Below the pieces are notes generated by a model. The model searched no databases, was not told the DNA's origin, and saw nothing but the letters and a program-made list of their open reading frames with translations. From positions 31,666,839-31,730,838 of the forward strand of contig OV121091.1 in NCBI GenBank assembly GCA_921293015.1: a stretch of 64,000 nucleotides of DNA. Reading direction: 5' to 3'. The position numbers were made by a program, and so were the translations under genes. The stretch is from Phorcus lineatus (lineage: Eukaryota; Mollusca; Gastropoda; Trochida; Trochidae). How positions within the stretch are numbered: the stretch's first letter is position 1; each line of letters starts with the position of its first letter. This document shows, piece after piece, positions 11,951 through 64,000 of this stretch.

Positions 11951-13719
11951 ATGGCAGCAGAGTGATGGCAAGATTGAATCCTGTTCTTTCCTTCGCTGAT
12001 AATACCACTCACCCTGTCGCTTTTCAAATATTTATAGACTGATTTGTCTACAATGATGTAAGTGTCAGGCCGGATGTGGACAATGACGCTTGTCTTCTAC
12101 GCAATGAGATTACTAGCTCTGATACAATCACAATGAACTAATGAGCTTGACATGAAATGACAGTGTGGGAATCATATTCTGTAACTGTCTGTCGCTGTAC
12201 TTTTAAGATATATAATGATACAATTAGCATTGTCTGCAAATTTTATAATAGAAATATACTCATAACTGTTGTTAAAAAACAATACATATCATAACTTGTG
12301 ATTTTGGTTCAATACATTTAAGACAATACAAAATAAAAATTACCTAATAATTATGATAGACATTATACTGTATTCTAAATCCTTTATTATCATTAATCAC
12401 CATCTACCAAGAGACAATAAAGAGTTACTAACATAAGCTTTGGTCTAGAGTTTTGGTCTATGAAACATTTGAGCCCTGCATGAAATAGTCTCATCATCTT
12501 CTTCAAATGTTTCCAAAATCACTATTTTTACTTAAAATTAGTATACATGATTTCCAAGTTTCGTACTAATTCAATTTGTAACTAATCTGACATCATATTA
12601 GAGTTTAACAATATAGTTCATAAGACAATGGTTGGTGAAGACCAAGCTAATAGAATAAATTTTCAACACTGTATGACCAAAGGTTTTAAAAATACTTCAA
12701 GATGACATGGTCATGAATCTACCTATATTTAGCAATCTGGAAAGGATTTAAAAAAGGAGAATTAACAGTGATAAATAGCATCATTTCCTCTACTTATATC
12801 TGCAATTAACGTTCCATGTTATGTACACAACAAGCATTTCTCCCCAACAACTATTCTTCTACCATTAGTTTGTTTGCCCCAAAATAATATCACGAAAATG
12901 CACTTATAGTTGTTTGCTTAGCCTGGTTTACAATATGCTGCAAAAGTAATCTCCACATAACACAATCCATGAAATTATTTTCCTATTTACATTCCAGAGT
13001 GTGCACACATAATCCAGTTTTTCTGCACTACATACAACACAGGCTTTGTCTGCTGATGACAATCACATCAGGTACAGACAAGAGTGATTTGTAAACAGAA
13101 ATTATCAACACATCCCCCGCACTTGATGATACACTTCAAGACACTTGTGTACCTTACCATTGCACAAGTGCATCATTCTATTGGGTCATATCAAACTATC
13201 CATTTTTGGAAATCTGTGACAAAGGTGTCATCTCATTTCAGAAATGTCATCGGTTCAATCTATAAGTAAAAACATAATTTTGTGATTTTTCCTACGGTAT
13301 ACTATCTCCGAAAAATATATAATTTGAGACCAACAGGTGGAAGATTTAATATTCAGGGTGAGAGTTATTGTGCTTCCCTTTTCAATGGAACCTCTTCATG
13401 GGTGAAAGTTAAGCTTTATCAGAAACAAATAATTCTGTTCTCTCATAACAAAGAAATAATCTCCATTACTTCAACAGAAGAATATTTATACTGTGTACAC
13501 TCGTACGTAACAAGACTCTGTCATCAAACGCTTTGTCTAAAACTCAAATAAGAAGACTAAAATTGCCTTTTATTTACTGCCAAAATACCCTTATAAATCA
13601 TCTTCAGGGACAAACTGTATAGTTTGATATTATTTAAGTAAATCATTACAGCACTTCATGAACAAATTTCAGTCCACTTTTTCCCTGTTAAGCAGGTTAA
13701 GAGTGCCAACTTGCACAGT
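11951..13719. other. anonymous DNA
   Basis: About 11990-12190 is more balanced in composition and free of repeats, a weak candidate for a conserved noncoding element. The rest, including small open frames at 13084-13269 and 13282-13551, shows no recognisable protein features. Confidence 0.4.
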
Positions 13720-13866
13720 GGTTTTCCTTGGTGTTCAGCCGAGGGGGGCATTTTAGCACATTATGGGCAAATGGGACCCTTTGCAATTGTGAAAGATCCT
13801 GATCTCTGCAATCCTATGGGATACAAAGCTAAATATTGGGCAAATTTTGCTAGGACCCCCTAAAGG
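13720..13866. repeat. dispersed repeat family B, copy 1
   Basis: Collinear with 44250-44400 in the same orientation. Shared landmarks in order are TTTTCCT-GGTGTTCA, a G-rich GAGGG or AGGGTGTC block, GACCC-TTGCAAT, GTGA-AG, TGGGCAAATTT, and AGGAC-CCCT. On the minus strand both copies read GGP, two residues, ICP in a short open stretch. The family may therefore be a decayed coding fragment of an element, though this is uncertain. Confidence 0.65.
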
Positions 13867-16860
13867 AACAACTTCCCTGCTTACATAAAGTCTTTTAGCT
13901 GTTAATAGATTTGCTCGGATTATGTGCGTCCCAACAAGATAGAATTGCATATACTAAGGAGTCTGCAAGATGGCTACAGTAAATATTTGGTGAGCTTGTA
14001 TTTAAAAAAATTTGAGATAAAACAATAATAGATCTGTTCAAAACAATAAAAAGATGAAATATCTTGCAATCAAATTTTGATAAGACTATGACAAATAAGA
14101 TATTTAGATCAAAGGTTGATAGCAAATGGTAGATCTTAAAAAAACCAACAGAGTTTTGTGTCCTAGCGGAAAAGACATCGGGCAAATCAGTTAGCTGGCT
14201 CAGTGACGACAAGAGTGCGCTTCGAAAACTCCATGTGCTAACGGATGCTTTAACGTTGTGCTGATTAACTTGGGGCCAAAGGTCACAGAGACATTAGTTT
14301 CAAGCCTGAGATGTATTTCATAAGAGTGATCTTGCCGGGTATATCAATAAATGAGAATATCTTATATCTTATTTCAATGAGATTGTACATTCCTGTATTC
14401 CTGAACAATTAATAACTACCGGTATAAGAGTTGTTTCTCTTTATTTATAACTAGTGATGTAGCTCCATCAATGAACGTGCCAACAAAAACATTTGGTTCA
14501 AAGAACAACAAAAAGATGCATTTTGCAAAAAAAACATACTTTAAGACACTCAAGCCTACTATAGAAATCCTTTCAATCTATTTCTGATAATTGGTGAAAT
14601 ATATAATTAATATTTGCAGGGTCATAAAGATATTCATGGTGTTTGACTCAATGACAGCCTCATTTCAGTTGACCAGGCACAAAAGTCAAGCTTTAAAAAG
14701 AATTATATAAATTCTGCAGGATAATTCATGGATTATTCTCCAGTTCAACATAACACTGCTCTTTTGAAAACCATTTCATAGTCTGAGAATTCTAATGGGA
14801 TCTGACATTCTAAAACATTGTTTCAAGTCAGCCAGGGGAAAACTGTCATTGGAGCAACTGCACATGAAATTTTGAAGTCGCAGGCCCTTGAGATGAATTA
14901 ATATTGATATGCAGAGCCAGTCTCCTTGGTTAGTCTGTGTGTATGAAGATGTCATCACAATTCCTTCCCTCGAGACAAATGACACAGACAGCTTTGCCAA
15001 AACAAGCTTACTAGAGAACGGTGCAGAAGAAACTGAAAGGTAATCTTAGAAATAACCACATATGGATAATACCTCATCATAAAAACAACGACAACCTGTA
15101 GCTCAGGCACATAAACATTATTCAAAAACAAAATGACAGACACCCCCCCTCCTCCCCCCCATCCCTCATGAACAGGAATTGGGAAAGGCAGGGGCCATGG
15201 GCCATTTTGCACATTGGAAAAAAAAATGGCCCATTAGAATTGAAAAATTTACTATTGCTATAAAGGGGAATGGCCCATTCAGAATTTCTGAAAAAGAATG
15301 AAAGCCCAAAAATTGCCCATTGTCAAAGGTGTCTTTCCTATTCCTACATGAACCTTACAGCACTGTCACTTTTACCATACAACAGCAAGATAGTTTATGA
15401 GTCAGATAAGTTATTCCCAATAAATATTGTTAATAAGTTATGATTTCTTTTGATTGGCCACAAAAAGTCTTTGACCCTTATTATTTCTGCAAACAAAAAT
15501 CACTATTGCATAACATTACAAATTAGGAAAACTATTCTAAATTTAAAAAGGAGAGGAAAATAGATTGATACACAGGGTGGTTAATACACGGGATGGGTTT
15601 CCTATGTTTCCTAAATAATAGAATGACTTACTGAAGAGACATAGATTATGGTGAGTAGTTAATACAGAGGTAGTAACTATTCACAAAACATGTGTTTTCC
15701 TCAGTGAACTGCATTCAACGTCCCAGCCTTTTAGTGCCTATACTACAAATGCAAGCCAATAGATCAGCCTTGAGTCCCTTGGATAATAAGTACCAGTGCA
15801 TGAAATAAGGCTCATCTGCAGTGCAAAACCTGGTTACATTTGGGCAAGGCCAGTCATGACGTTGGTAGGTTTATCTCAGATTTTGCCCTATAAATGAGAT
15901 AAGTTATCCTTTTAAACTTTCCAGGTTTATTTCATACACTGCAGTGTAAAGTAAACAGTAAAACAAACAATGAGTATGTAAGTTTTCAAGAGCACCAACT
16001 CAAAGGGGTATCCTAATACGTTTTCCCTGTCACTTCCATGGATAGGACTATGAATAAAATGAAGCTGACCGCAACACACATATACATTAATATCACAGGG
16101 TCTTAAATAACTTGTTTCTCAAAAAGGTTATTCCTTTAACTTAAGCCCAGGGCACCATTCTGCTGGAACATTTGACACTTGCTATTGAAATGCAGACTCA
16201 GAAATAGGTTAATGTTAAAAACAAACATGTACATGTATTGAAAAGTAATCTTGGGAGATGAGAATCTTGAGCAATATCTTGGTTTGTATTAGCATTGGAG
16301 GATATTTGCAGGGTATCATTAGTACAGATGAAATCAGAATTTTGCAATATTTTACATTAAAACTATTATTAGAGATATTATATCAACCAAACTTAAACCA
16401 TTATTTACTGATTAGATTAAAGACAAAGATTCTTCTTTTTAGCCAGCAGCAAAATCTTCATTGTCAATTTGATCATTCTAATTTTTCATATGTAATATTG
16501 TATAATTTTATATAATACAATAGACTCATCTAAAAAGTGACAAAATATAATGTCATCTGGTGATGGAAACTGAGAAGTGCACACCATAATTGACCAAAAT
16601 CGAGAGAAATGTATTCTTATGTACAAAAGTTCCAGTTGTCTGAATCTCAATTTTTGCATTTAAATCAGCTAAAACAGTACAAGCAGATAACTCTAATTGA
16701 CACTTCCATTACGTGTGAAGAATTTCAAAGTTCAGGGATCTGATAATCACTACACATGCCGACAGTTGAGGAATGAAAATGTCATTTCATCAAATCTGAT
16801 CCTATTAAACTAAAGCGGCTTAATACCATAGCTGTGCACACATGCAATACAACCCCTGGT
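13867..16860. other. anonymous DNA with a C-rich run
   Basis: A polypyrimidine run of C with a few T lies at about 15144-15169, and several TGGCCCATT-like phrases follow at 15190-15300 as a loose local duplication. No gene, TIR element or ordered tandem array was recognised. Confidence 0.45.
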
Positions 16861-17689
16861 ACAAGGTGGGGATGAAGCGGGGATCACTTACCAGATAACA
16901 GGTGCTTGTCAGGTATATCCCATATGTGTTATACTCCTGGCAGGATCGTCACATATGTCAAAGAATCACCCGTTTGAAACAAATGTGAATAAAATTCTAA
17001 GTGTAACATACAGATAGAAAGTAATTCCTCAGTGTCACTTCACAGACAAAATCAAAAGTTTGGGCCAGTGTCACCAACAGATATGTTTGGATTATCACAA
17101 GTTCCTAGAAAATGTAAGTAAAATTTTGTAGCAAAATACAGATTGATGGCAAAAATTCAAAGTAAGGACAAAAATATCAGATCTAAATTATAACTGTACA
17201 GTTAATCCTCTTTGGCATTAGGCCAACCCTATCCTTGCAGCACGGACATGCAGGCTCACTCAGGGTTCAATCTCGACACTTGTGTAACCAATAGTAACAC
17301 TTGAAGGAACGACCCTCACACAGCCTCAGAGGATATGTGAATCTTATCCACAGGCAAATGTAAATCTAGTCCTCGCAGAAAAATGTATATCACAGTCCTA
17401 GAGCAATAGAGAGACTGATAAAACTGTCTAACAGAGATCAACTCTTACGGGGACTGTCACATCACACGTGGGGACAACCTCCAATCACACACAGAGCGGG
17501 GGAGCATATATGCACTCAAGCTTCAGAGCCAGTAAGCCAGTCACAACAATAACAAGTTGGCCACTTGAGTGATAATCCAGCAGTAACACAGTTCACAAAT
17601 ACAAATAGAGGAAATGGACTGGTAAGTCTGGAGGCAGACCCTCATTGAAAGTCTACTCTGTGGTTGGTCCAACTGGCGGGAATAGAGCT

Positions 17690-17880
17690 ACGACCCTCCC
17701 AGTTAAGAGTTGGATGAGAGTTTTTAATCTGGACCCTCCCAACCTCCGCAGAGTTGTAATCTAGAGCCTCAAACCTAGGGAGAGTTGATAATCTAGACCC
17801 TCCCAGTTGAGATAGATTGATAATCTTAACCCTCCCTGCTATAGGAGAGTGCTTGATAAGCCGAGAGCTACTCAAGAGTA
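17690..17880. repeat. degenerate 32-38-bp tandem repeat, about five copies
   Basis: The phrase ACCCTCCCAG, or close variants of it, recurs at about 17694, 17733, 17765, 17798 and 17830. Between repeats lie AATCTAGA-type spacers and GAGAGTTGATAATC-like text. The copies are diverged, so the array is old. It lies in an otherwise unremarkable stretch (16937-18950) with no recognisable gene. Confidence 0.7.
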
Positions 17881-19023
17881 CTACAGGTTTCATGAGGATT
17901 GAGTCCAACCAGAGTAGCAAGGTGGAGAGACTCTAGCGTACTGTCTCTACACATGGTACTGGATCAGGACAGTGTGTTTGTTTATCTGTGGGATTCTGCT
18001 TTCTTACTTGATGGCTTGTTATAATGTTACACGTTGGCAAGATTGAAAGTGGGATATGATATGATTGAATGTGACATGTGGATGGATGGAATGTTCCAAA
18101 ATGAAACATATGTCCTTTAAACACTATTAGCCCTTGCCTTACCTTTTTGTTTAAGAATGTGCTAAATAGTTTCGGCATTCTTGATCATCAACACTTGAAT
18201 ACGAATCACAACTTATAAGTCCACTGGCTCACGCCTGTCCATGAATATTTCTTGTTGTGCATAAAAAGGGTTAATATGTAAGCTGCCACTACAGCATAGT
18301 AGGAAATATCTTATCTTCAAAGCACGACAATCCTATAATGATTACATTTTTGGTAAGTTGGTATCCCTGCATATTGGGTACTCAGAATGTTTGGGTTCAA
18401 TGGCTATAGACTTAGAGCTATTTTCATTATTATCAAAGGTGGCACTAAACTCATATTTAGTACAACAATCAGTCATGACATAAAACTTATTTCATCAATA
18501 TCCTAAGATTCAAACTTATTGTCAGTCAGTAAGCAATATTGAATACATTTTAAAACTTTCTTATAAACATTTTTGAAGAGCTTAAAAACTGCATCATAAC
18601 TCACAATGATAGCATGTTCTTTGAATTGAATACCAGTACAATGACAGGTTAGTTAAGCAGTGAAGCAACATCCCCATATCATCTCAGGAAGGTTGATAAT
18701 GTTATAACACATAGCTATTTGTGTAACTAATTGACTATTAGCCCAGCGGAAGGGTCAGGCAATAAACACACACTATATGAGGTGGAGACGGCAGACAGAA
18801 AACTTGTTACCATAATCACAATGTGCTCATGACAGCTTGTGTTAACCCTCCTCCTGCTAAACTAAAGCCAAAGCTTAATTCAAAACTTTTCTGATCTGAT
18901 CTGATATTCTTCAATTCAGAGTCCATTTGCAAGAATGTTCTGTAATGCGCTACATATGTAGCATGCAGTCTATATATGTGTATCTACACAACATATGAAC
19001 ATATGTATCTATGCAATGTATTG

Positions 19024-19052
19024 TGACGTCATAATTGTTACTCATGACGTCA
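19024..19052. promoter_or_regulatory. paired CRE-like palindromes 21 bp apart
   Basis: TGACGTCA occurs at 19024-19031 and again at 19045-19052. This palindrome is the classical CREB/ATF binding site. A matching pair with the same spacing and similar intervening bases lies at 32164-32192. Here the pair immediately precedes the hammerhead. Whether it acts as a promoter of a small element is inference. Confidence 0.3.
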
Positions 19053-19057
19053 TCACC

Positions 19058-19112
19058 GATGTCATTCACCTGATGAGACCTTATGGTCGAAAGTACTTGT
19101 GAATAAATCATC
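19058..19112 (+). ncRNA. hammerhead self-cleaving ribozyme (type I, minimal stem III)
   Basis: All invariant parts of a hammerhead are present in the right order and spacing. CTGATGA is at 19070-19076. Stem II is GACC (19077-19080) paired with GGTC (19085-19088) around a TTAT loop. GAA follows at 19089-19091. A92 and T97 then form the A15.1-U16.1 pair, leaving T98 as the cleavage-site residue (H17). Stem I pairs ATTCAC (19064-19069) perfectly with GTGAAT (19099-19104), and a small internal loop is followed by GAT/ATC pairing. Cleavage is predicted between 19098 and 19099. Such hammerheads with a one- or two-base-pair stem III are known from metazoan Penelope-like elements and small retrozyme-like elements. 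No reverse transcriptase or second ribozyme copy is seen next to it, so this is probably a solo or truncated element. Catalytic activity is not demonstrated. Confidence 0.85.
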
Positions 19113-19224
19113 TTGATTTTCTTATCATACAATAACAATAAAATATCAGGACATCCAGTTTCCTTTTTCAAACATTTACAGTGGAACACAGAAAGCTAGA
19201 AATTGTTTCTGCAGCAGTCCAATG

Positions 19225-19303
19225 GTTATTTGTGGCTGTAGATTGCAGTTAAACCTGCTAACATCTGCTTGAAATTTTTGAAACTAGCCAACCATGGACT
19301 GAA
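19225..19303 (-). mobile_element. SINE 3' fragment (same family as 36.0 kb)
   Basis: TGGCTGTAGATTGCAGTTAA, then ACCTGC, ACATCTGCTTGAA and CCAACCATGG, are collinear with the tail half of the SINE at 36000-36060 (TGGCTATGCATTGCGGTGAA, ACCTGC, GCATCTGCTAGAA, CGAACCATGG). Only the 3' portion survives. It lies in the minus orientation like the other copies. Confidence 0.55.
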
Positions 19304-19312
19304 ACATTACTC

Positions 19313-19364
19313 TATAGTATAGTATAGTATAGTATAGTATAGTATAGTATAGTATAGTATAGTA
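19313..19364. repeat. (TATAG)n pentanucleotide microsatellite
   Basis: About ten perfect pentanucleotide repeats without interruption, suggesting a recent and probably polymorphic tract. Confidence 0.97.
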
Positions 19365-20730
19365 CCAAACGTTCATTGGAAGGCAAACCTCTGTACTTTA
19401 CCACCCAGGTAGAACAGAAAGATTATTGGTCAAATGGAGAAATGACACCTTTCATAATTATCAACAGGCAGAATATTAGCTCATAAAGTAAGAAGAACAT
19501 GTGGAAGTATATGTTGTTTCTTCAAAGGTTACAAGTCAACTTTGCTTAAGCTTCAATGAAGCTCATATCTTATCATATCAGCTCATAACAATATATTCTA
19601 TTTTCGTATGGCAGATAACTGAAATATGGTACCAGTACATATTGTGTCAACAGCACCGGGAGGGTTAATCAAACTCAAACAGTGGTGATGACAGGCTGAA
19701 TTATCTCTCCCTGTATTAGATACAGCCTCCTAATATGCCTTCCACTATTATTCCATCAACACTGCCAGCCCTCTCTAAACACTAAACAAATTGGGGTTAA
19801 CAACGGCAATCTTTTGGAAGTGGTACAAACTTCCATTTTAATATTATTTTACATTTTAAACAAAAACAGAAATGGTCCTTTCATATGTTCTCAGCTTTCA
19901 ATATTCAATTTGTAAATTCTAAAAATACTTTTACATAAGGATCAAATTAATTTCAGACTTCTGAAAATCTTTTTAACAGCAACATATCATAATTTGATTG
20001 ACATGATTTGATTACTTTGCTTCAAACACAATTTAATATTCATCAAGCTTGCACGGATATAAAATTGGTTGTTAAATTTGGCAAGTATTCATCGATTTCT
20101 CTGCTAATGAGCAAAGAATGGTTTGAAATATTACCTTGCTATACTTTCAACATTGCTGTAATAAAATCAGTGAGAGACTAAAGTGTCACTTTAAATCTAA
20201 TTTATCAATGTTAAATCTAATCAATATTAACCTAGTTTCAAGTTCTAAAGATGTAGTTGAATGCAAAGCCATGAAGAAAATTCTGTGATTAGACAAAAAT
20301 AATCCTTAAAATCTTTTTTAAATGTTTTAACAAGAATATGGGACTTTTATATAAATTAAGTGTAATGTCACTCGTCTGAAGTTCCAAGAAAAGTAGAAAA
20401 TGTGAAATGCTTTGATGTTCAATCTAGTTGATTTTCATTTGAATTTATTGAAATGCATATATTTTTTTTAGAAATAAAAAACATTACATGTCCCTTTGTT
20501 GTTGATATTTATTTGAAGAGACAAGGTGAGAGCTTGGCTCCTTGGAAATGTACTGTCATATATTTCATCATTTACATTAGAAGAAAGACAAGTCCAAATC
20601 ATTTGTTTTACCTATATTTTCAACTAGTCTGAGGGCGTGTTCCACGGTGCTAGAAGTGGCTGACGGTACTGAGTGGCGGTCCGGATCCACTAAAGGATGC
20701 TGGATGGTAGACTAAGGGTTAAACCGAAAT

Positions 20731-20961
20731 ATGAAGCTTAAATGGGGGCTAACCATCCAACGGATGACAACTCGGTGTTTACAATTAAGTTTTTAATTGT
20801 TACGTTTCTTACTTGTGAGGGTGGCTTCATCAGACTGATCATGAAACTTCATCAGGTCTGATGAAGCCACCCTTACAGGTGGCGAAACGTAACAATTAAA
20901 AACTTAATTGTAAATACTGAGTTGTTATCCGTTGGATGGTTACCCCCCTTGAAACCTATAT
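20731..20961. mobile_element. large inverted repeat with a hammerhead-like core
   Basis: Two arms of about 100 bp (20731-20835 and 20856-20961) are reverse complements with few mismatches, separated by about 20 bp. Landmarks are AACCATCCAACGGATGACAA on the left and its complement on the right, and ACAATTAAGTTTTTAATTGT inside each arm. In the right arm, CTGATGA (20858-20864), GCCACC/GGTGGC pairing (20866-20871 with 20878-20883) and GAAAC (20884-20888) recall a hammerhead. However, one extra A precedes stem II, and stems I and III do not form convincingly. The left arm's counterpart has a broken stem II. This could be a foldback transposon or two inverted ribozyme-like element ends. Confidence 0.7.
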
Positions 20962-20966
20962 TTTCA

Positions 20967-23379
20967 GAACATGAAAAAAGCATACTTGGTAGAAAACCAT
21001 GTCTCTTCAAAATTCAAACTACAGGACTCTGAATAGATGCACTGAGTAGATAAAACTTTATGGAATAAATTGAAAGCACAAGAGATTTTCAGGGAAACAC
21101 CCTTATTCATCAGAGAAGAAAAATAACCCATTTAAAGGCCCCTACCTGTTGGAGAGGCATTGAGTAGTTCATGCTGAGTATGTGAGTGTTTTATTGAAGC
21201 AGCACTGAAAATAATCTAGTCTCTATTGAAACAGCTCTCTCTTCAAGAGATTCTGCCCTTTCCTGAATTATAGACGTTTCCACCATGGTCCTGTATTGTG
21301 TCTGGCCACTACCGTACTATTTCCCTGAACAGCAAGGAACCTGTCCTCTCCTCTATCCACTCACTTCAAGTGGGCCAAGTAATTGTGAAAATCAACCTCC
21401 TTTGCTACTCCTGTTTGTGAAAAAAAAAGATTAGATTTCTTCCAGTTGAGGGGAGCAATCACTGACATGGGGACCGAGCACAATCACATTACAGGCTAAA
21501 CTTATTGTTGCAGGGTGATTGAGAGTAAATCCTCTGACAAAGCTCCTCTGACGACTGAGGAGATTTTCAGCCTCCATTTGAGTTTAGACAGGCCATGAAG
21601 AGTCCAATGTCGCTTCTGTCAATTGAATTACGATTGGAGGCTGTGACCGTCTAACATTTTTGGAGGTTGTTGAACAGAGTTTCAGTAGCGGCGTTTGAGA
21701 GAAAGAACATGGAAACTTGGACCTGATCCCCAGAAATATAGACTTGCTGTTGTATAAGGTTTAACCTCTATAAGCAATTTTTCCAACGGAAAGCAATGGT
21801 TCTTGGCACAATTAAGTCCTCAAACCTATGGCAAGTCAGAAACAAGCTTGGCTCACTGCTGAATCGCAGGATTTCCAAGTTTTAAGGGTTAAATATCATT
21901 CTATATCCCTACCCACATATCCCTAACTTATCAGGACAAATCTTTGAATCATATTGGTTCAGTATATATCTTATCTGTTTCATTTTCCTTTCTCAAAGTC
22001 TTTACACAGCATATCAAATACTTAAATATGATGGGTTTTTAAAAAAAATAATCTGGTAAAAATCTAAGGATCCTTCTTTAATGCTAATTTCTAACTCTTA
22101 TGACAACCTATGTGGTGCCAAGAATAAAAAATTATGAGAAGGTCCATCTTGTTTAAATATCCCTGGACACTCCTGTTTCCTTGGCTGAGAGACCTTTCTA
22201 AAGCTTCATTTCACACCCTGTAGTTATAAATTGTGTCACACATACAACTTGTAGTCTACTATCCTCTACCTCTGCACCATGAGTGCTTATTAAGTACAAT
22301 CATTTACATTCTCATTTAGCGAACCATCGCAAAAAAAAGACAAAGAAATCAATATTTAAAAACTTAAAGACTAAAGACTCAACTTTAGTCAATGGCAAAA
22401 AGGTTGAGTTTTCTCCAGAAGAACCTACGACATGAAGATCAAATGATGTATTTATGAAAAACCTGCTTTTTTTTAAATCTGCAGAGCAGCCAATCTCTGA
22501 TTAGTGTCAGTAGCTGGTTCAATGAATGACCAGTCGTGCTTGTCTGGCCGGTTGGTTGCTTGGCTGCTTCAAAGATATGTTGTACTTGAGTTTGTACATT
22601 TTTAAAAGGCTTGGGTTGGGTTTTTTAAAAACAAAGTCACTGAAGTAATGGGAAGGTGACCTACTGGCATGTATTTCTACCAAATATTCTCTGACATTTG
22701 CCTGGAATGTTTTTAGTGCAAGAAAATTAAGAAACTAAATTTACATTTTTCTAAAGGTTGATGTCAACAAATTGTCTCTAAAGTCTTGAAATCATAAAGG
22801 GTTTTTATATAGATAACAATGGTATACTGCTTACCTCAGTAACTTCAGATGATTTGTATCATACTTATGAACACCCTTCAAAGTTTTATAACAATACAGA
22901 AACGATTAATTATCAATTTTCATGAAAGCAGATGTGTTCAGTCCATTCAATGGCAGTAACTACTACGTCTAACATATGTGACTCCAGAAGCAACAAGAGA
23001 CAATGATATTCCAAGCTTGAAATCATGATAGACACTTCTGTTTAGTAAGTATGAAATCTGAGATGATCGGTAATTATATGTACATCTTGGTCGAATTATT
23101 GTCACTGTAATGGAGACATCTAACTGATTTCAACATCAATTCATTGACAAAATCAAATTGTATTTCATGAAATCAAAGGGTCCATATGGTTTCAACATGG
23201 ATTTTCTAGAGTCATTTTGCTTGATAACGGATATATGAAAATGATATATCTTATCTGCGAGGCATTTTAGAAGTTTGGATGATGGTAATGAAGAGAAGTA
23301 TATAATTCTTTTTTAAAAAGATATGCAATGTTTCGACACAGATCTGCTTGTACAAGACAGACAAATCTGAAAATGTCAC
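20967..23379. other. anonymous DNA
   Basis: The interval 21430-21720 is less AT-rich and repeat-free, a weak conserved-element candidate. Nothing else was recognised here. Gene calls are not supported on either strand. Confidence 0.4.
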
Positions 23380-23780
23380 ATGAATAAAGAAGTTATCCTT
23401 CTCATCTTTCTCTCCAATACAGAAAACAATATAAGTAATAATTGTAATAATAGTAAATTACAAAATGAATACCATGTATTACTAGAATGTCCATTCAATA
23501 ATGATGTAAGAAAAAAATGTACACCATGTATTATTACACTAACCCTAATCAAAATAGATTTATAAGTTTATTGAATCATATTATCTTATTACATTTAGCT
23601 GTTTTTTTAATTATATTATTATCTTACTATATTTAGCTGTCTATTGTACAAAAGTATTACCTGTAGGTTAGTTTCAGTATAATTAATGTCAAGGCGCTCC
23701 AGAATGTATGTTACTATGTATGTCAATGTACTAATAGCTTCATGGCCATTCATACTAATAAAATCTGTCTGTATGTAATG
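23380..23780 (+). pseudogene. 5'-truncated, frameshifted LINE ORF C-terminus and 3' UTR
   Basis: The reading around 23440-23515 gives C, nine residues, H, four residues, C (C-X9-H-X4-C) followed by P-F-N-N-D-V-R-K-K. This is the same spacing and flavour as the C-terminal zinc motif of the intact LINE protein at 57.6 kb (C685, H695, C700, then Y-S-D-I-R). After a frameshift the text continues N-P-N-Q-N-R-F-I-S-L-L-N, as usual just after that motif in LINE proteins. An AATAAA lies at 23757-23762 near the presumed element end. The upstream reverse transcriptase is absent. This is a dead fragment of a family distinct from the 57.6-kb copy. Confidence 0.6.
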
Positions 23781-24289
23781 ATAAGTAATCAGAACCAAAT
23801 TCAACAAATAATCTGCGCAAGACCGCCCCTTAAAGCTAATGAAGATAACAGTAAATAAAGAGAAATAAGAGGCAATCTGGTATCATTTGTTAAGCATTAG
23901 TTTAGTTAAACTATCAATCCAACAGTCAATTCCCTTGAAACACAGTCTATTTTTTACTTTTCTACCTCACCCTGAGAAATATTGTACAATTTAAAAAATA
24001 AATCTAGAATCTGTCATCTAATCTCTGTTGGGCTCCTTTAACTAATTATGAATGGATTGTTGTTATTATTATCAAAAATTAGATAGATAAAGATTCCTAA
24101 GGTTTTTAACAGAAGTGGCATTTGAATAAGTTTAATTCTCGGCAATCAAATGAGGTTAAATTTTCAAACGGAAAAGCCAACATTTTCAGGAATGTGAAAG
24201 ATTCAAAATCAATACTACAACACTAAAAATATTTTGGTTAAAAAATACATCCAGTATGAAAATCATAAATCAACTTTTCTAAAAATAGA

Positions 24290-25415
24290 GCCATGGGCTC
24301 TGTAGCTCATCAGACTTTTGATAGAAATAGGTGTTGTGGTTTGGACCATGGGGTCATGGGCAGTGTAGGAAAGATAGCCTGTCCCAATGTCAGAGTTATT
24401 CACAATCAAATAAAAAGGCCCATTGCCCATTTGGGGTCAAGGGGTCACCGAACCTACAATTCAGAATCCCCATTGTCCAAGGAGTCTACACACAACTATT
24501 AAGCTATCAAGACCTTTTGGAACTGGAGAAGAAGATGAAAGTAGGATTTTAAGGTTTTGACCCCTGTTACCCCATTTGGGGTCAAGTGGTCACCAAACCT
24601 ACAATTTAGAATCCCCAGTGTCCAAGGAGTCTTCACACAATTTTTCAGCTCTCTAGACCTTTTGGAACTAGGGAAAAAGATGAAATTAGGTTTTTTAGGT
24701 TTTGACCCCTGTTACCCCATTTGGCGTCATGGGGTCACCAAACCTACAATTTAGAATCCCTGTTGGCCAAGGAGTCTACACACACCTTTTCAGCTCTCTA
24801 GACCTTTTGAAACTAGGGAAAAAGATGAAATTAGGTTTTTTAGGTTTTGACCCCTGTGACCCCATTTGGGGTCATGGGGTCACCAAACCTACAATTTAGA
24901 ATCCCCGTGGGCCAAGGAGTCTACACACACCTTTTCAGCTCTCTAGACCTTTTGGAACTAGGGAAAAAGATGAAATTAGATTTTTTAGGTTTTGACCCCT
25001 GTGACCCCATTTGGCGTCATGGGGTCACCAAACCTACAATTTAGAATCCCCGTTGGCCAAGGAGTCTACACACACCTTTTCAGCTCTCTAGACCTTTTGG
25101 AACTGGAGAAGAAGATGAAAATAGGTTTTTCAGGTTTTGACCCCTGTGACCCCATTTGGAGTCATGGGGTCACGAAGATTAAAATAGACCATTTGGGGTC
25201 ATGGGGTCATGAAATCTACAATTTAGAATCCCCATTTGCCAAGGAGTATGCACATAAAATTTCAGCTCTCTAGAGTCATTAGTTCTGGAGAAGAAGTCGA
25301 AAAAGTGAAAAGTTTATGGATGGACGGATGGACGGACGGTTGGACGGATGGACGGACGCCGGACGCCTTGCCATGCCATAAGCCCATCGGGTCTTTCAGA
25401 CCTGATGAGCTAAAA
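24290..25415. mobile_element. element built of 145-bp units with short terminal inverted repeats
   Basis: CCCATTTGG recurs at 24426, 24571, 24716, 24861, 25006 and 25151, an exact 145-bp period, with a partial unit after 25189. Each unit holds an inverted repeat (GTGACCCCAT facing ATGGGGTCAC around a short centre), then ACCTACAATTTAGAATCCCC, AAGGAGTCTACACACA and CAGCTCTCTAGACCTTTTGG. After the array comes a GGATGGACGGACGG-type run (about 25317-25366). The outer ends TAGCTCATCAG (24303-24313) and CTGATGAGCTA (25402-25412) are exact inverted repeats of 11 bp. I read it as a non-autonomous DNA element with an internal tandem array. Repeated open frames across it are products of the repetition, not genes. 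Confidence 0.8.
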
Positions 25416-31314: not shown

Positions 31315-31918
31315 GTTTGGTTTTCACATTATCAGTTGCCGAATATTACTTGGTTTTCATATCATCAGTTGCTGAATATTACTTGGTTATCATATCATCA
31401 GTTGCCGAATATTACTTGGTTATCACATTATCAGTTGCCGAATATTACTTGGTTTTCATATCATCAGTTGCTGAATATTACTTGGTTATCATATCATCAG
31501 TTGCCGAATATTACTTGATATCATATCATCAGTTGCCGAATATTACTTGATATCATATCATCAGTTGCCGAATATTACTTGGTTATCATATCATCAGTTG
31601 CCGAATATTACTTGGTTATCATATCATCAGTTGCCAAATATTACTTGGTTTTCATATTATCAGGTGCTGAATATTACTTGGTTTTCATATCATCAGATGC
31701 CGAATATTACTTGGTTTTCATATTATCAGGTGCTGAATATTACTTGGTTTTCATATTTTTAGATGCCGAATATTACTTGGTTTTCATATTATCAGATGCC
31801 GAATATCACTTGGTTTTCATATTATCACATGCCGAATATTACTTGGTTTTCTTATTATCACATGCCGAATATTACTTGGTATTCATATTATCAGATGCCA
31901 AATATAACTTGGTTTTCC
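31315..31918. repeat. 33-bp minisatellite, about 18 copies
   Basis: The unit reads ACTTGGTTATCATATCATCA then GTTGCCGAATATT, with TTATC/TTTTC and TTGCC/ATGCC/GTGCT variants forming subfamilies along the array. Two neighbouring units near 31515 and 31547 are 32 bp, which shifts the reading frame. Because 33 is a multiple of three, long open frames appear in several phases, reading WFSYHQLPNIT or VFISSVAEYYL. The presence of equally good readings in different frames and the 1-bp indels argue against a protein. Confidence 0.95.
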
Positions 31919-32163: not shown

Positions 32164-32192
32164 TGACGTCACAATCGTTCAGCATGACGTCA
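32164..32192. promoter_or_regulatory. paired CRE-like palindromes 21 bp apart
   Basis: TGACGTCA at 32164-32171 and 32185-32192. The spacing and the intervening text (CAATCGTTC.GCA) resemble the pair at 19024-19052 (TAATTGTTA.TCA), so these look like copies of one dispersed sequence. Regulatory activity is unproven. Confidence 0.3.
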
Positions 32193-32261
32193 CAACGTTG
32201 GCAATGGTAATCTCGGTAAGTTTTTCATGCTTCTTCAGCAAGTAATAAATAAAACAAAACT

Positions 32262-57499: not shown

Positions 57500-57614
57500 G
57501 GAGATAAACCTAGTGTGTTTGAAAATCAGAGACATGTTATACTGAATTGATAGCGAGTAAATTTTGAATTGAAACCTGCGCAATCTGATTTTCAAACACA
57601 CTAGGTTTATCTCC
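57500..57614. repeat. 31-bp perfect inverted repeat at the LINE 5' junction
   Basis: Bases 57500-57530 are the exact reverse complement of 57584-57614, with 53 nt between. The right arm is the first recognisable part of the LINE copy, and the coding frame opens inside it at 57589. The left arm is therefore an inverted copy of the LINE's own first bases, as expected from twin priming or template switching during target-primed reverse transcription. Confidence 0.9.
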
Positions 57615-60148
57615 TAAATATGAAGGCATTTTTCGTCGTAATTATATTGCAGAAAGGAAGAGCTTTGATAGGTTGTTACGTAGACATAGGCGATTGTATC
57701 AGGCGTCTGAGCAAAAACGATTGTTAGATAAGTACAGTGGTAAAAACAGCAAGGACTTTTGGAAAGCTATTGGTGAAATAGGAATAGGGAATGAAAGGCG
57801 TGGTAGTATCCCATGGGAGGTAACTCGTAACGGTACACCATTCTCAGATAGGAATACTGTTTTGAATGCATGGAAGGATGATTATGAGTCATTATATAAT
57901 GCTGACAGTGTTCCGGAGTTCGATAATGATCATCTACGTGAGGTTTCAGAGGTTGTTACCAGCAATCAGGTTGCTCCCGGTCAGTTTGATACTTCGATTC
58001 TTGATGCCCCTATTTCACGTGAAGAGGTTGTCTCTGCGGTTAGTCGCGCTAAATGTGGAAAGGCTGTTGGCTTTGATCTACTACCTGCTGAATCGCTTAA
58101 GAATAGTGCTACCATTGAAGCTCTTCTTAAAGTTTTTACCTTTTGTTTCGAGAATAATGTATGTCCTGATATTTGGCGTAATAGTATCGTCTTTCCAATC
58201 AAGAAGGCGGATACAGACCCAACCGATCCTTTGGGTTATCGGGGTATATCTCTATTATCTATTCCATGTAAGGTTTATTCTGATATCTTAAATTCCAGGT
58301 TCACAAAGTGGTTAGAATATAATGATCTTTTGGCCGAGGAGCAGAACGGTTTTCGTAATAAGCGTAGCACAGTTGAACATATTTATAGTTTGTATAATAT
58401 CATTGCTAACAGGAAGTCTTTGAAACGTTCCACATTCGTTTGTTATATTGACGCTATGAAGGCGTTTGATAGGGTCAACAGAAATTGTATGTGGTATAAA
58501 CTTTTACAGCTTGGTGTGAATGGAAAGTTTTACCTTGCGGTCCGGTCTCTGTATGATAATAATAAATCTTGTGTTTCCATAAATGGTTACTACACGGATA
58601 ACTTTTCAGTAAACAGTGGCGTAAAGCAGGGTTGCGTCTTGTCGCCTACTTTATTCTCTCTTTATATTAATGATTTGGTTGAGGAAATTAATAGTTTAGT
58701 GTGTGGTATTGATGTGGACGGAAGGATGGTCAGTTTACTGTTATATGCTGACGATATTGCTCTGCTTGCAGCCGATGAAAATTCTCTACAGCGTATGCTT
58801 AATTGTGTTTCTTCCTGGTGCAGAAAATGGCGTCTTCAAATTAACAGTAAAAAAACTAAAATTGTTCATTACAGACCCAATTCTATTGATAAATCTTGTT
58901 TTGATTTTACTTGTGGTCCGGAAGTGATTGAAATTATACATGCATATAAGTATTTGGGCATTTGGCTAAATGAACACTTGAATCTAAATTTTACAGCCAA
59001 TGAAATTGCTAAGTCAGCAAGCAGAGCACTTAGTGTAATCATTAGTAAGTTTAAAGCAGTGGGAGGAATGGCCTATGATGTTTTCAACTCATTGTATGAT
59101 AATCTTGTGCAACCTATTTTATCTTATGGTTCAGCTATTTGGGGTACTAAAGAATTTAAAAGTATTAACACAGTTCAAAACAGGGCTAGCCGGTTTTTTC
59201 TAGGCGTTGGTAATAAAACTGCAAATCTTGCAGTACGGGGCGAAATGGGGTGGTTATCTTGCATTTCTAAACAAAAAATCGAAATTATCCGCTTTTGGCG
59301 GAAATTAAATATGGCTGAACCATCAAGATTGACTAGTTGTATTAAAACATGGTCGCTGAGGTTTAGAAAATCCTGGGATAATGTTGTTTTAAATCTCATC
59401 AGGCAAGTTAATGTTCCAATTCATGATTTATCTTCTGTTACTCAAAGGGAGTTTATTGCAGTTAGTGAAAAAATTATCACTTTAGATCAGGATAATTGGT
59501 TACGTGGTCTATGGAACGACAACAGACAAGTTAATGGTAATAAGCTTCGAACATTTAGATTATTTAAAAGAACCTTGACAGTTTCACCCTATGTCCGCTC
59601 AGTATTAGACCGCTCTCATCGAAGTATTCTCGCTAAGTTAAGATGCGGTTCTCTTCCCTTAGAGGTGGAATTAGGTCGTTTTGCCCGCCCCCAAACACCA
59701 TTAAATCAACGTATTTGCAAATATTGTAATTCCAGTGCAGTCGAAGATGAGACTCATTTTCTTACTTCTTGCCAATTTTATTCGGATATTAGATCCCCTT
59801 TATGGCATAAGGCAAAAGCTATTAATTACCAGTTTATAAATATGTCCTCAACAGACCAATTAATATTTATTATGCAGCTCCCCCAACTTTCCCCATCACT
59901 TGCCGCTACACTTTCTGCTATGTTTAGACGCAGAAAAAGCACCATGTTATAAGCAATATTTAACTTTTAAAATATGATTTTATATAATATATTTTAGTTA
60001 TTTTTAGCGCTTAAGCGCTCTTAGAGTGTTTTGGTGTCTCGTAGGCCATTGTTGGCCGGACAACGTACTCTATATTGATATCTTACTGTTTTTATGATTG
60101 TACGTTGTGTGACACCTAAATAAAATATTTTCTTCTTCTTCTTCTTCT
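57584..60148 (+). mobile_element. 5'-truncated non-LTR retrotransposon (LINE)
   Basis: The copy consists of an open reverse-transcriptase frame, a 3' UTR of about 170 bp and a (TTC)n tail (about 60131-60147) after AATAAAATATT. The 3' UTR contains the perfect palindrome AGCGCTTAAGCGCT (60006-60019) and a GGCCATTGTTGGCC hairpin, plausible recognition structures for the reverse transcriptase. No endonuclease domain is present upstream, where the frame meets a stop at 57586, so the 5' half was lost on insertion. The open frame without decay indicates a young copy. The minus-strand remnant at 45 kb and the fragment at 23.4 kb represent other families. Confidence 0.85.
57589..59952 (+). CDS. partial LINE reverse transcriptase, ORF2-like C-terminal part
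   Basis: An RNA-dependent DNA polymerase that would copy LINE RNA at a nicked target. The frame is open from 57589; the start is lost, so residues are counted from codon 57673, giving 759 aa. Motif A is YIDAMKAFD (258-266, catalytic D260). GVKQGCVLSP (316-325) is the template/primer grip motif. YADD (358-361) gives the two catalytic aspartates. KKTKIVHY (393-400) and YKYLGI (425-430) lie in the thumb region. The C-terminus holds C682, C685, H695 and C700 (C-X2-C-X9-H-X4-C), the zinc-binding motif common near the end of many animal LINE proteins. The endonuclease domain that should precede it is missing. There are no internal stops. It is a mobile-element protein, not a host gene. The exact LINE clade cannot be settled by eye. 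Confidence 0.93.
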   Translation, partial: FSNTLGLSPKYEGIFRRNYIAERKSFDRLLRRHRRLYQASEQKRLLDKYSGKNSKDFWKAIGEIGIGNERRGSIPWEVTRNGTPFSDRNTVLNAWKDDYESLYNADSVPEFDNDHLREVSEVVTSNQVAPGQFDTSILDAPISREEVVSAVSRAKCGKAVGFDLLPAESLKNSATIEALLKVFTFCFENNVCPDIWRNSIVFPIKKADTDPTDPLGYRGISLLSIPCKVYSDILNSRFTKWLEYNDLLAEEQNGFRNKRSTVEHIYSLYNIIANRKSLKRSTFVCYIDAMKAFDRVNRNCMWYKLLQLGVNGKFYLAVRSLYDNNKSCVSINGYYTDNFSVNSGVKQGCVLSPTLFSLYINDLVEEINSLVCGIDVDGRMVSLLLYADDIALLAADENSLQRMLNCVSSWCRKWRLQINSKKTKIVHYRPNSIDKSCFDFTCGPEVIEIIHAYKYLGIWLNEHLNLNFTANEIAKSASRALSVIISKFKAVGGMAYDVFNSLYDNLVQPILSYGSAIWGTKEFKSINTVQNRASRFFLGVGNKTANLAVRGEMGWLSCISKQKIEIIRFWRKLNMAEPSRLTSCIKTWSLRFRKSWDNVVLNLIRQVNVPIHDLSSVTQREFIAVSEKIITLDQDNWLRGLWNDNRQVNGNKLRTFRLFKRTLTVSPYVRSVLDRSHRSILAKLRCGSLPLEVELGRFARPQTPLNQRICKYCNSSAVEDETHFLTSCQFYSDIRSPLWHKAKAINYQFINMSSTDQLIFIMQLPQLSPSLAATLSAMFRRRKSTML

Positions 60149-61533: not shown

Positions 61534-61740
61534 TTGATCCAAAGTCAAAGACGCTACCAATAATCTCCTCCCATCCTCTGAAATAAGTTAACCGTAGATA
61601 TTACTAGTATGCTAAAAAAACTCCAAACTCCAAACAGAAAAGTTTGCAGAAGCTCCTGATGGGAATAAAACACAGGACCTGTTGTGCTAATGTGTGAATC
61701 ACTCCCTATTTACAGGATTGGTGAAGTGAGTGAACAATGA

Positions 61741-63232
61741 CTGGACTACACTGATCCAAAACCTGACTGCATGTAAAGCAATACTGGCACTACACTGATA
61801 CAAAACCTGACTGCATGTAAAACAATACTGGCACTACACTAATACAAAACATGACTGCATGTTAAACAATACTGGCACTACACTGATCCAAAACCTGACT
61901 GCATGTAAAGCAATACTGGCACTACACTAATACAAAACCTGACTGCATGTAAAACAATACTGCGGCCTTAAAATAAGCACCTAGGAGCTTGTTGGCCAAT
62001 CCATTCATGATTTGTACATTTTCATGAATAAATATGTTTAAATCAAAACAATACTGGCACTGATCCAAAACCTGACTGCATGTAAAGCAATACTGGCACT
62101 ACACTAATACAAAACCTGACTGCATGTAAAAGAATACTGGCACTACACTGACCCAAAACCTGACTGCATGTAAAGCAATACTGGCACTAAATTGATACAA
62201 AACCTGACTGCATGTAAAACAATACTGGCACTACACTAATACAAAACATGACTGCATGTTAAACAATACTGGCACTACACTGATCCAAAACCTGACTGCA
62301 TGTAAAGCAATACTGGCACTACACTAATACAAAACCTGACTGCATGTAAAACAATACTGCGGCCTTAAAATAAGCACCTAGGAGCTTGTTGGCCAATCCA
62401 TTCATGATTTGTACATTTTCATGAATAAATATGTTTAAATCAAAACAATACTGGCACTGATCCAAAACCTGACTGCATGTAAAGCAATACTGGCACTACA
62501 CTAATACAAAACCTGACTGCATGTAAAAGAATACTGGCACTACACTGACCCAAAACCTGACTGCATGTAAACAATACTGGCACTACACTAATACAAAACA
62601 TGACTGCATGTTTAACAATACTGGCACTACACTGACCCAAAACCTGACTGCATGTAAAACAATACTGGCACTACACTAATACAAAACATGACTGCATGTT
62701 AAACATGACCGCATGTAAAACAATACTGACACTACACTAATACAAAACATGACTGCATGTTTAACAATACTGGCACTACACTGACCCAAAACCTGACTGC
62801 ATGTAAACAATACTAGCACTGATCCAATACCTGACTGCATGTAAAGCAATACTGGCACTACACTAATACAAAACCTGACTGCATGTAAAACAATACTGGC
62901 ACTACACTGACCCAAAACCTGACTGCATGTAAAACAATACTGGCACTACACTGACCCAAAAACTGACTGCATGTAAAACAATACTGGCACTACACTAATA
63001 CAAAACATGACTGCATGTTTAACAATACTGGCACTACACTGACCAAAAACATGACTGCATGTAAAACAATACTGGCACTACACTGACCAAAAACCTGACT
63101 ACATGTAAACAATACTAGCACTGATCCAATACCTGACTGCATGTAAAACATTACTGGCATTAAACTGATCCAAAATCTGACTGCATGTAAAACAATATTG
63201 GCACTACACTGACCCAAAAGCTGACTGTATGA
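61741..63232. repeat. 44-bp minisatellite with 387-bp higher-order duplication
   Basis: Unit landmarks are ACTGGCACTACACTGATCCA, then AAACCTGACTGCATGTAAAG and CAAT. The basic period is 44 bp (61784 to 61828). Subtypes differ at GATCC/AATAC/GACCC and TAAAG/TAAAA/TTAAA. A unique 78-bp insert beginning GCGGCCTTAAAATAAGCACC occurs at 61972 and again at 62359, giving a 387-bp duplication of the surrounding units. The CCAAACCTGACTGC and TGTA-AGCA portions match the core of the 36.0-kb SINE, suggesting that the array grew from a SINE piece. A possible decayed SINE head lies just upstream (about 61640-61715). Minus-strand open frames here result from the repetition. Confidence 0.92.
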
Positions 63233-64000
63233 AAAACAGCAGTCATGAGCCAGAGTTTCTTTGCCCAGGAATTTTCATTTAAGTTCACACATTGATTGTT
63301 CAGCAATGAAACTGTTTGAACCAAACAATAAAAATCTGACACTGTATATTTCCAACAATGAATATTTGGCTTAATGCCATTAATCAGAGCCATGAACCAG
63401 ATAAATTTAACAAGCCTGAACACAAAACCACTTACTCAAACCTTTGCCACATTCAGCTGGACAATAATGAACTTAGTTACGGATACCATTATCAAGTTTA
63501 CCCCATACTAGACATTAGCCTGTATTTAACAGTGATTTGTCAATCAATTCCGATGCAAGATGGTGATAAGGTTTGCATGCACAATGTTACTGCTAAGATT
63601 TGAGACATAAATCCATTAACCCGTTCCATGCTGTGGGCATCAAAGTCACCATAAGTTACCCAATAAACACAAATCATCATGTGGATACAAATCATGTTCA
63701 TGTTTAAAGGAATGTATGATGAGAATAATCCTGAATTGGAAATTAGCTTACGAAAGGCTTTCATGGAATATTTGGACCTTCAGGTGAAGATTTTAATCTC
63801 CTCAAATGATGCCCTTGATTGTTGGTTGGTCATAAAAGTTTGAAGTTGGACTCTTCAACAACAACTTAAGATAACTTTTTTCAAAGTACAAATATCTCAC
63901 AATCCATGTATGATTGTATGGATTCTCAAACCTCCAACCATGCATGTACTGGTCCAAGAATGCTTCCCTTATAAAACTCCTCATAAGTCATCTACAATTT
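63233..64000. other. anonymous DNA
   Basis: No gene or repeat family was recognised. The open frames at 63358-63603 (plus) and 63540-63764 and 63802-63984 (minus) have no motif. Confidence 0.5.

Follow-up and report, generated by a model that had tools for sequence, protein, structure and literature searches.

A stretch of 55 nucleotides in the genome of the gastropod Phorcus lineatus has the look of a hammerhead ribozyme, and it raises two questions: whether the resemblance is real, and what kind of element carries it. We studied it within a window of 64,000 nucleotides (C17:31666839-31730838 of the 958-Mb genome). Minimal type I hammerheads were reportedly described in Penelope-like elements (PLEs) by Cervera and de la Pena in 2014. 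The initial annotation proposed a canonical-looking hammerhead whose stem III is minimal, a form that it linked to Penelope-like and retrozyme-like elements. In our reading, the motif is almost certainly the minimal hammerhead that belongs to a Penelope-like retroelement; it survives in an old insertion of 266 bp that is truncated at its 5' end. Read directly, the sequence contains every hammerhead part that the annotation had named, each in its place:

19064..19104 (+), type I hammerhead ribozyme with minimal helix III (RF00163 at 27.1 bits, repeated core, fold found in further PLE families)
19064..19069 (+), stem I 5' strand ATTCAC, pairing with 19099-19104
19070-19076 (+), core CTGATGA
19077..19088 (+), stem II of 4 bp (covariance alignment and descriptor), with strands GACC (19077-19080) and GGTC (19085-19088) and loop TTAT (19081-19084)
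19089-19091 (+), core GAA
19092..19097 (+), self-complementary helix III segment AGTACT: A15.1 (19092), GTAC (19093-19096) and U16.1 (19097)
19098 (+), U17
19098..19099 (+), predicted cleavage site after U17, placed from hammerhead anatomy
19099..19104 (+), stem I 3' strand GTGAAT, pairing with 19064-19069

The core is that of a type I hammerhead (CUGANGA, GAA and UH); its three helices follow one another as they should, and stem I is open. In helix III, AGTACT gives a monomer one A-U pair, and two copies could form six pairs. The Rfam model Hammerhead_1 (RF00163) aligns end to end, its positions 1-45 to 19064-19104 (+), at 27.1 bits; the E value is 9.7e-5 in a scan of 301 nt against all Rfam families. 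The gathering cut-off of this model is 34 bits, a curated threshold rather than a definition of the fold; because 27.1 bits falls under it, a scan of the whole window at that cut-off lists no hammerhead. The covariance check that the annotation had suggested thus succeeded as an alignment and fell short as a score. A descriptor composed after the motif was seen (CTGANGA, a stem II with 4 bp or more, GAAA, U-H and a stem I with 5 bp or more) matches exactly once in the window, at this site, against none in 150 first-order Markov windows, and a search for a second copy of the motif in the window found none. We take the motif at 19064-19104 to be a real type I hammerhead.

The covariance evidence depends on search filters: when five loci were scanned jointly against Rfam, with matches allowed to an E of 0.1, no hammerhead was reported, though two of them (L089 and L106) have the identical 41 nt, and L089 scanned singly gives 27.1 bits. 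We take the miRNA family matches in that joint scan, which fall on (TA)n or inverted repeats, to be spurious. Over the whole genome, RF00163 gave two weak matches from the 73 scored of 101,392 candidates, neither at the window site, and the same search gives matches in 11 of 14 control genomes; with so few candidates scored and controls matching as well, we regard the genome-wide count as uninformative. Nor do we take as a ribozyme count the 21,322 genomic matches to CTGATGA-N(8-20)-GAAA, against 5,784 for the reversed pattern.

The annotated 55 nucleotides also take in an outer stem, GATG/CATC (19058-19061/19109-19112), which owes its existence to a short deletion peculiar to this copy. All 12 aligned relatives read ACTCAA-type sequence at this place. 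Among 19 distinct non-window flanking contexts around an intact 41-mer, one (L105) has four outer pairs at that spacing, and it spans a head-to-head junction; the main family context, with 74 occurrences in the fetched loci (overlapping loci counted more than once), cannot form them. Outer stem I, not being kept in the family, is rejected as part of the motif, and the conserved unit is the 41 nt of 19064-19104. With outer stem I unconserved, "canonical-looking" was too strong a description.

The motif is repeated in the genome. Its exact 23-nt core occurs 259 times (127 + 132) in 958 Mb, where the reversed core has 0 occurrences. A DNA search of the genome with 18900-19300 returned 41 matches, the window included, from 40 scored of 551 candidates. 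We compared window 13000-24000 with 59 loci, 30 fetched for the core and 29 for likeness to the window; the window repeat aligns to all 59, as it must by construction of the sample. The match exceeds 150 nt at 75-89% in 48 loci and lies only around the ribozyme, at 94-98%, in 11. Most long matches span 18858 to 19123, and two extend to 19127 (L032) and 19145 (L058). Numbering the C of CTGATGA (window 19070) as +1, we dismissed a sharp common 5' border at -221, which is merely the border of the query copy L063. At 32164-32196 the window holds a further 33-nt stretch of weak family likeness (E 0.002), with no ribozyme in it.

The initial annotation had recognised no element body around the motif. 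We now identify one at 18858-19123:

18858..19123 (+), 5'-truncated PLE copy of family 1 with ORF end, 3' UTR or pseudo-LTR, and ribozyme (blastn to L070)
18859..18888 (+), last ten codons, KLKPKLNSKL, of the RT/GIY-YIG ORF (tblastn and DNA alignment)
18892-18894 (+), stop following these codons
19024..19031 (+), TGACGTCA, a perfect palindrome (read directly)
19045..19052 (+), second TGACGTCA (read directly)

The DNA aligns by blastn with positions 3665-3924 of L070 (reverse strand) at 86.2% over 276 columns. By tblastn, the ten codons are identical (10/10) to residues 793-802 of the L070 ORF; with an E of 6.9 on its own, this match rests on the surrounding DNA alignment. The window copy starts within those last codons and therefore reads as a 5'-truncated PLE. 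The two TGACGTCA boxes, putative CRE-type elements, are both perfect in 9 of 12 aligned relatives. The ATG inside CTGATGA of family 1 meets a stop after nine codons (read directly), so it cannot start the long ORF.

L070 has an open frame of 802 aa that unites RT and GIY-YIG, the latter at 42.1 bits (cut-off 22.6) and RVT_1 at 24.4 bits, below its cut-off of 29.6 (E 2.7e-5). Its ribozyme core begins 173 nt after the ORF stop, and its 714-bp direct repeats are 99.2% alike. Direct core pairs about 3 kb apart occur in both L069 and L070; in L069 the same frame is split into pieces of 435 and 399 aa, and two more open frames, at 99%, have 791 and 789 aa. An ORF search of the genome gave 58 places from 56 scored of 3386 candidates, at 84-100% for the first family and 54-63% for others, including several stop-free frames of 789-823 aa. 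A PDB sequence search with the PLE ORF gave no match up to E 1. The relatives thus have RT and GIY-YIG in one ORF, of which the window copy retains the last ten codons only. Pseudo-LTRs are seen in the direct repeats of L070 and in head-to-head and direct core pairs, and 5' truncation, an optional 3' tail and an AT-rich target are found among the relatives as well. By this RT and GIY-YIG layout and the element anatomy, we assign the host to the Penelope-like elements.

The motif might instead derive from a non-autonomous metazoan retrozyme, whose tandem repeats of about 170-400 bp give rise to circular RNAs, rather than from an autonomous PLE. The metazoan retrozymes and the newt and axolotl satellite hammerheads (Cervera and de la Pena 2020, PMC7229834) are of type I like ours, short interspersed copies starting beside the ribozyme do exist here, and that paper reports co-occurrence with PLEs in animals. 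As described there, however, retrozyme and satellite hammerheads sit in short tandem non-coding repeats, whereas that of the window stands behind a coding PLE, with no tandem array of about 170-400 bp around it. Many copies also run continuously into the PLE ORF, some for 1.7 kb, as far as the fetched stretches reach, and the window copy itself begins in the ORF, which largely refutes a retrozyme origin. We consider such an origin very unlikely; of the two forms that the annotation had offered, the Penelope-like one is retained.

This Penelope-like copy looks old. It differs by about 14% from young copies, with its 41 nt intact, and it has ACTCATGAC, common to a minority of the listed copies. 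Its 3' end at 19123 stops short of the +77 usual in the family, so its ends are not those of a clean insertion. Intactness despite such divergence could mean that the host has co-opted the copy for use as a regulatory ribozyme, a fate suggested for conserved amniote hammerheads, yet the copy was picked for being intact, and the 41 nt are also intact in 1 of 20 other fetched copies bearing ACTCATGAC (L089; 22 such copies stand among the 100 of 195 matches listed). Purifying selection is unsupported by these counts, and co-option strikes us as a highly improbable account. The window copy is rather an undamaged survivor, not evidence of use, and thus owes its intactness to luck and the way in which it was picked.

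Four further PLE families have hammerheads at the same place with different arms. In family 2 (L119; ribozyme in L115) the PLE protein is 40% identical over 499 aligned columns, with GIY-YIG at 29.7 bits, and the hammerhead scores 19.3 bits (E 0.016). Twelve regions were fetched as 3' flanks of other PLE copies, and ten contain an intact hammerhead core: six from family 3 (L145, L146, L147, L152, L154 and L155), three from family 4 (L148, L149 and L151) and one from family 5 (L150), which our first descriptor missed because of a mismatch in stem II. In L156 (family 3) a hammerhead with a core mutation can be seen by eye, and L153 is not a 3' flank. Stem I, stem II and the segment from A15.1 to U16.1 read as follows:

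Family 1: ATTCAC/GTGAAT; GACC/GGTC; AGTACT
Family 2: ATCC/GGAT; GTCAAT/ATTGAC; ATACTAGTAT
Family 3: ATGGC/GCCAT; GGCTC/GAGCT (one G.U); AGCGCT
Family 4: GGC/GCC (three pairs only); AGCAGGTAC/GTACCTGCT; AACGTT
Family 5: CTAAC/GTTAG; GCCA/TGGC behind an A.A mismatch; AGCGCT

With the fit chosen on stem I length alone, all five family representatives (5 of 5) have a self-complementary helix III segment, which may amount to four independent cases because families 3 and 5 have the same segment. We conclude from these comparisons that the genome holds at least five PLE families carrying predicted hammerheads, several of them with open frames. A chance match in AT-rich DNA, for which the sub-threshold Rfam score and the loose pattern CTGATGA-N(8-30)-GAAA (8 in the window against 1.95 expected) could be quoted, has a negligible probability in view of the single full-descriptor match and the repetition of the element, and is refuted by covariation in five families that keep the fold with different sequences, just as the annotation had judged chance agreement unlikely. 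Its hammerhead with minimal stem III is upheld by the RF00163 alignment, the descriptor and this covariation. It would have given up that reading for want of a covariance hit above threshold, and literally there is none; we do not regard the score as decisive, since a helix III this small does not fit the model well and other PLE families keep the fold with sequences of their own.

How could so small a ribozyme work? Free folding of 19058-19112 forms stems I and II together with base pairs within the core (z = -1.96; 6 of 200 shuffles equally stable). The best fold of a single 41-mer, pairs inside the core included, has -10.2 kcal/mol, against -8.7 kcal/mol with stems I and II alone and -3.3 kcal/mol when the one-pair helix III is added. 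A one-pair helix III is predicted to make a poor monomer. Two 41-nt copies cofold at -25.2 kcal/mol, compared to 2 x -10.2 for singles, keeping both stems II and sharing stems I and the helix III region between the copies. The best inter-copy helix has eight pairs, two above the active form, and it takes in two core bases, so this cofold is not exactly the active form. Self-complementarity of helix III in all five family representatives points to dimeric cleavage, and we infer that live elements would be cleaved as dimers with the help of protein. The axolotl form Amex1, in which helix III likewise consists of one pair closed by a palindromic tetraloop, is described as cleaving weakly when monomeric and well when dimeric (PMC7229834), and an anole PLE ribozyme as cutting only when its protein was present (PMC11167929).

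We propose the following scheme for an active element. Its transcript would carry the ribozyme near the 5' end, in the 5' pseudo-LTR, and again in the 3' UTR; the two copies would pair through the self-complementary helix III (AGUACU) and cut after U17, probably assisted by the element's protein. At insertion, the endonuclease would nick mostly (TA)n DNA and reverse transcription would start downstream of the ribozyme, which is why the ribozyme would be copied into each insertion. From the window copy, seemingly a dead by-product, we expect little: cutting would need read-through transcription and a partner.

The insertions themselves constrain this scheme. By pattern, the 59 oriented loci class as 28 untailed, 22 tailed and 9 other, at least L024 among the last being actually tailed. 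Their 3' ends lie mostly at about +77 or carry a tail, and their 5' ends vary. In the first 30 exact-core loci, which include three pairs that are arms of one insertion, 11 of the 5' ends fall at -15..+1, 0 at -16..-135 and 19 beyond; in the next 20 loci, read by eye, the counts are 5 at -15..+1, 4 at -16..-60 and 11 beyond -60. That many copies start beside the ribozyme we read as an RNA 5' end there, which would suggest a putative RNA start site at the ribozyme, behind the two TGACGTCA boxes. The templates of copies that reach +77 or are tailed were not cut at that ribozyme, since the insertions run past the cut site, in agreement with what Frangieh et al. conclude for PAc in vitro (PMC11167929).

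Among the first 100 of 259 cores listed, pairs no more than 4 kb apart are head-to-head in 12 cases, direct in 3 and tail-to-tail in 0 (by eye). We assembled 22 readable head-to-head pairs from these 12, 5 from further listings and 5 whose second arm lacks an exact core (L029, L040, L047, L053 and L059), leaving out four candidates with one or no 3' end found (L021, L025, L046 and L136). The other head-to-head loci are L010/L011, L017/L018, L030/L031, L054/L055, L093-L107, L109-L112 and L140-L142. The tail measures about 40 nt at the 3' end, and (TA)n follows at the end of most arms that were read. Exactly one arm is tailed in 21 of 22 pairs, L055/L054 being tailed on both. Were the arms independent, about half of the pairs should be one-tailed; for the first 15 pairs, 14 of them one-tailed, P lies between 0.0001 and 0.0005 when the tail rate is varied from 0.35 to 0.6. 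For Penelope families of Adineta vaga, the published account already states that one of two inverted pseudo-LTRs may carry a tail (PMC3846280), so ours is a quantification of the rule and not its discovery. Pseudo-LTRs and head-to-head as the commonest inverted form are further features shared with that account, whose main text does not use the word "hammerhead".

That the two arms differ in their tails argues against one arm being a simple fold-back copy of the other, and the AAATCTG variant common to both arms of L105 argues against two independent RNAs. For one candidate inward arrangement, C7:19374277(+)/19374450(-), the second core was not found in the fetched stretch (L117). In L108 (G000:C7:9132600-9133000), two cores follow each other in the same direction at a period of 33 nt, suggestive of an RT template jump inside the motif.

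A bolder idea gives the PLE hammerhead a role that would add to cutting or replace it, that of an RNA-RNA handshake: the self-complementary helix III, found in all five families, would join two template RNAs in one insertion complex, and a protein dimer would prime one of them per target strand. If true, head-to-head insertions should have 3' ends on both outer borders and a tail on one, as in our 21 of 22; we hold it to be unlikely all the same.

Minimal PLE hammerheads entered the literature in 2014 (Cervera and de la Pena, cited in PMC7761336), and the title of Lunse, Weinberg and Breaker 2017, cited in the same review, has them "cleave RNA as dimers". The window motif resembles these in its core, open stem I and very weak helix III, in its place in the pseudo-LTR/3' UTR of an RT and GIY-YIG element, and in a self-complementary helix III suited to a dimer. 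Our finding is therefore of a known kind, to which we add a placed remnant, five families and insertion statistics; in the literature consulted, the sequences of these five families were not met. Another close counterpart is the Poseidon element PAc of Anolis carolinensis (Frangieh et al. 2024, PMC11167929), described with an RT and GIY-YIG ORF, a hammerhead by the pseudo-LTR, an optional 3' tail and an AT-rich target, as here, and with both strands cut and extended in vitro. Its ORF begins at stem II, whereas in our element 173 nt separate the stop from the ribozyme; RT start is given for PAc in vitro as without strand difference, whereas our head-to-head ends are nearly always one tailed and one untailed.

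An orphan ribozyme match is now placed as an old PLE 3' end. The 2020 review terms the role of PLE hammerheads a mystery (PMC7761336), and five families in one genome, several with open frames, make this role open to comparative study. The self-complementary helix III, the 5' ends clustered by the ribozyme and the one-tail rule are constraints on how PLEs insert.

Other features were observed along the way. Another hammerhead-like repeat occurs at L071 and L072 (G000:C19:11238580 and G000:C5:43075480), scoring 28.4 and 24.4 bits, with AGCCCCTCCTCGCCTAAT downstream in both. In the window, a 787-aa open frame at 57589-59952 (+) with RVT_1 at 128.8 bits apparently represents a LINE-type element that has no link with the ribozyme. 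Minisatellites lie at 61733-63238 (period 44 nt), 31317-31917 (33), 24426-25173 (145) and 1194-1947 (68). Finally, the inverted repeat at 20728-20964 has 81-nt arms, 86% complementary, that enclose another pair of 25 nt, and it resembles a small inverted-repeat element.
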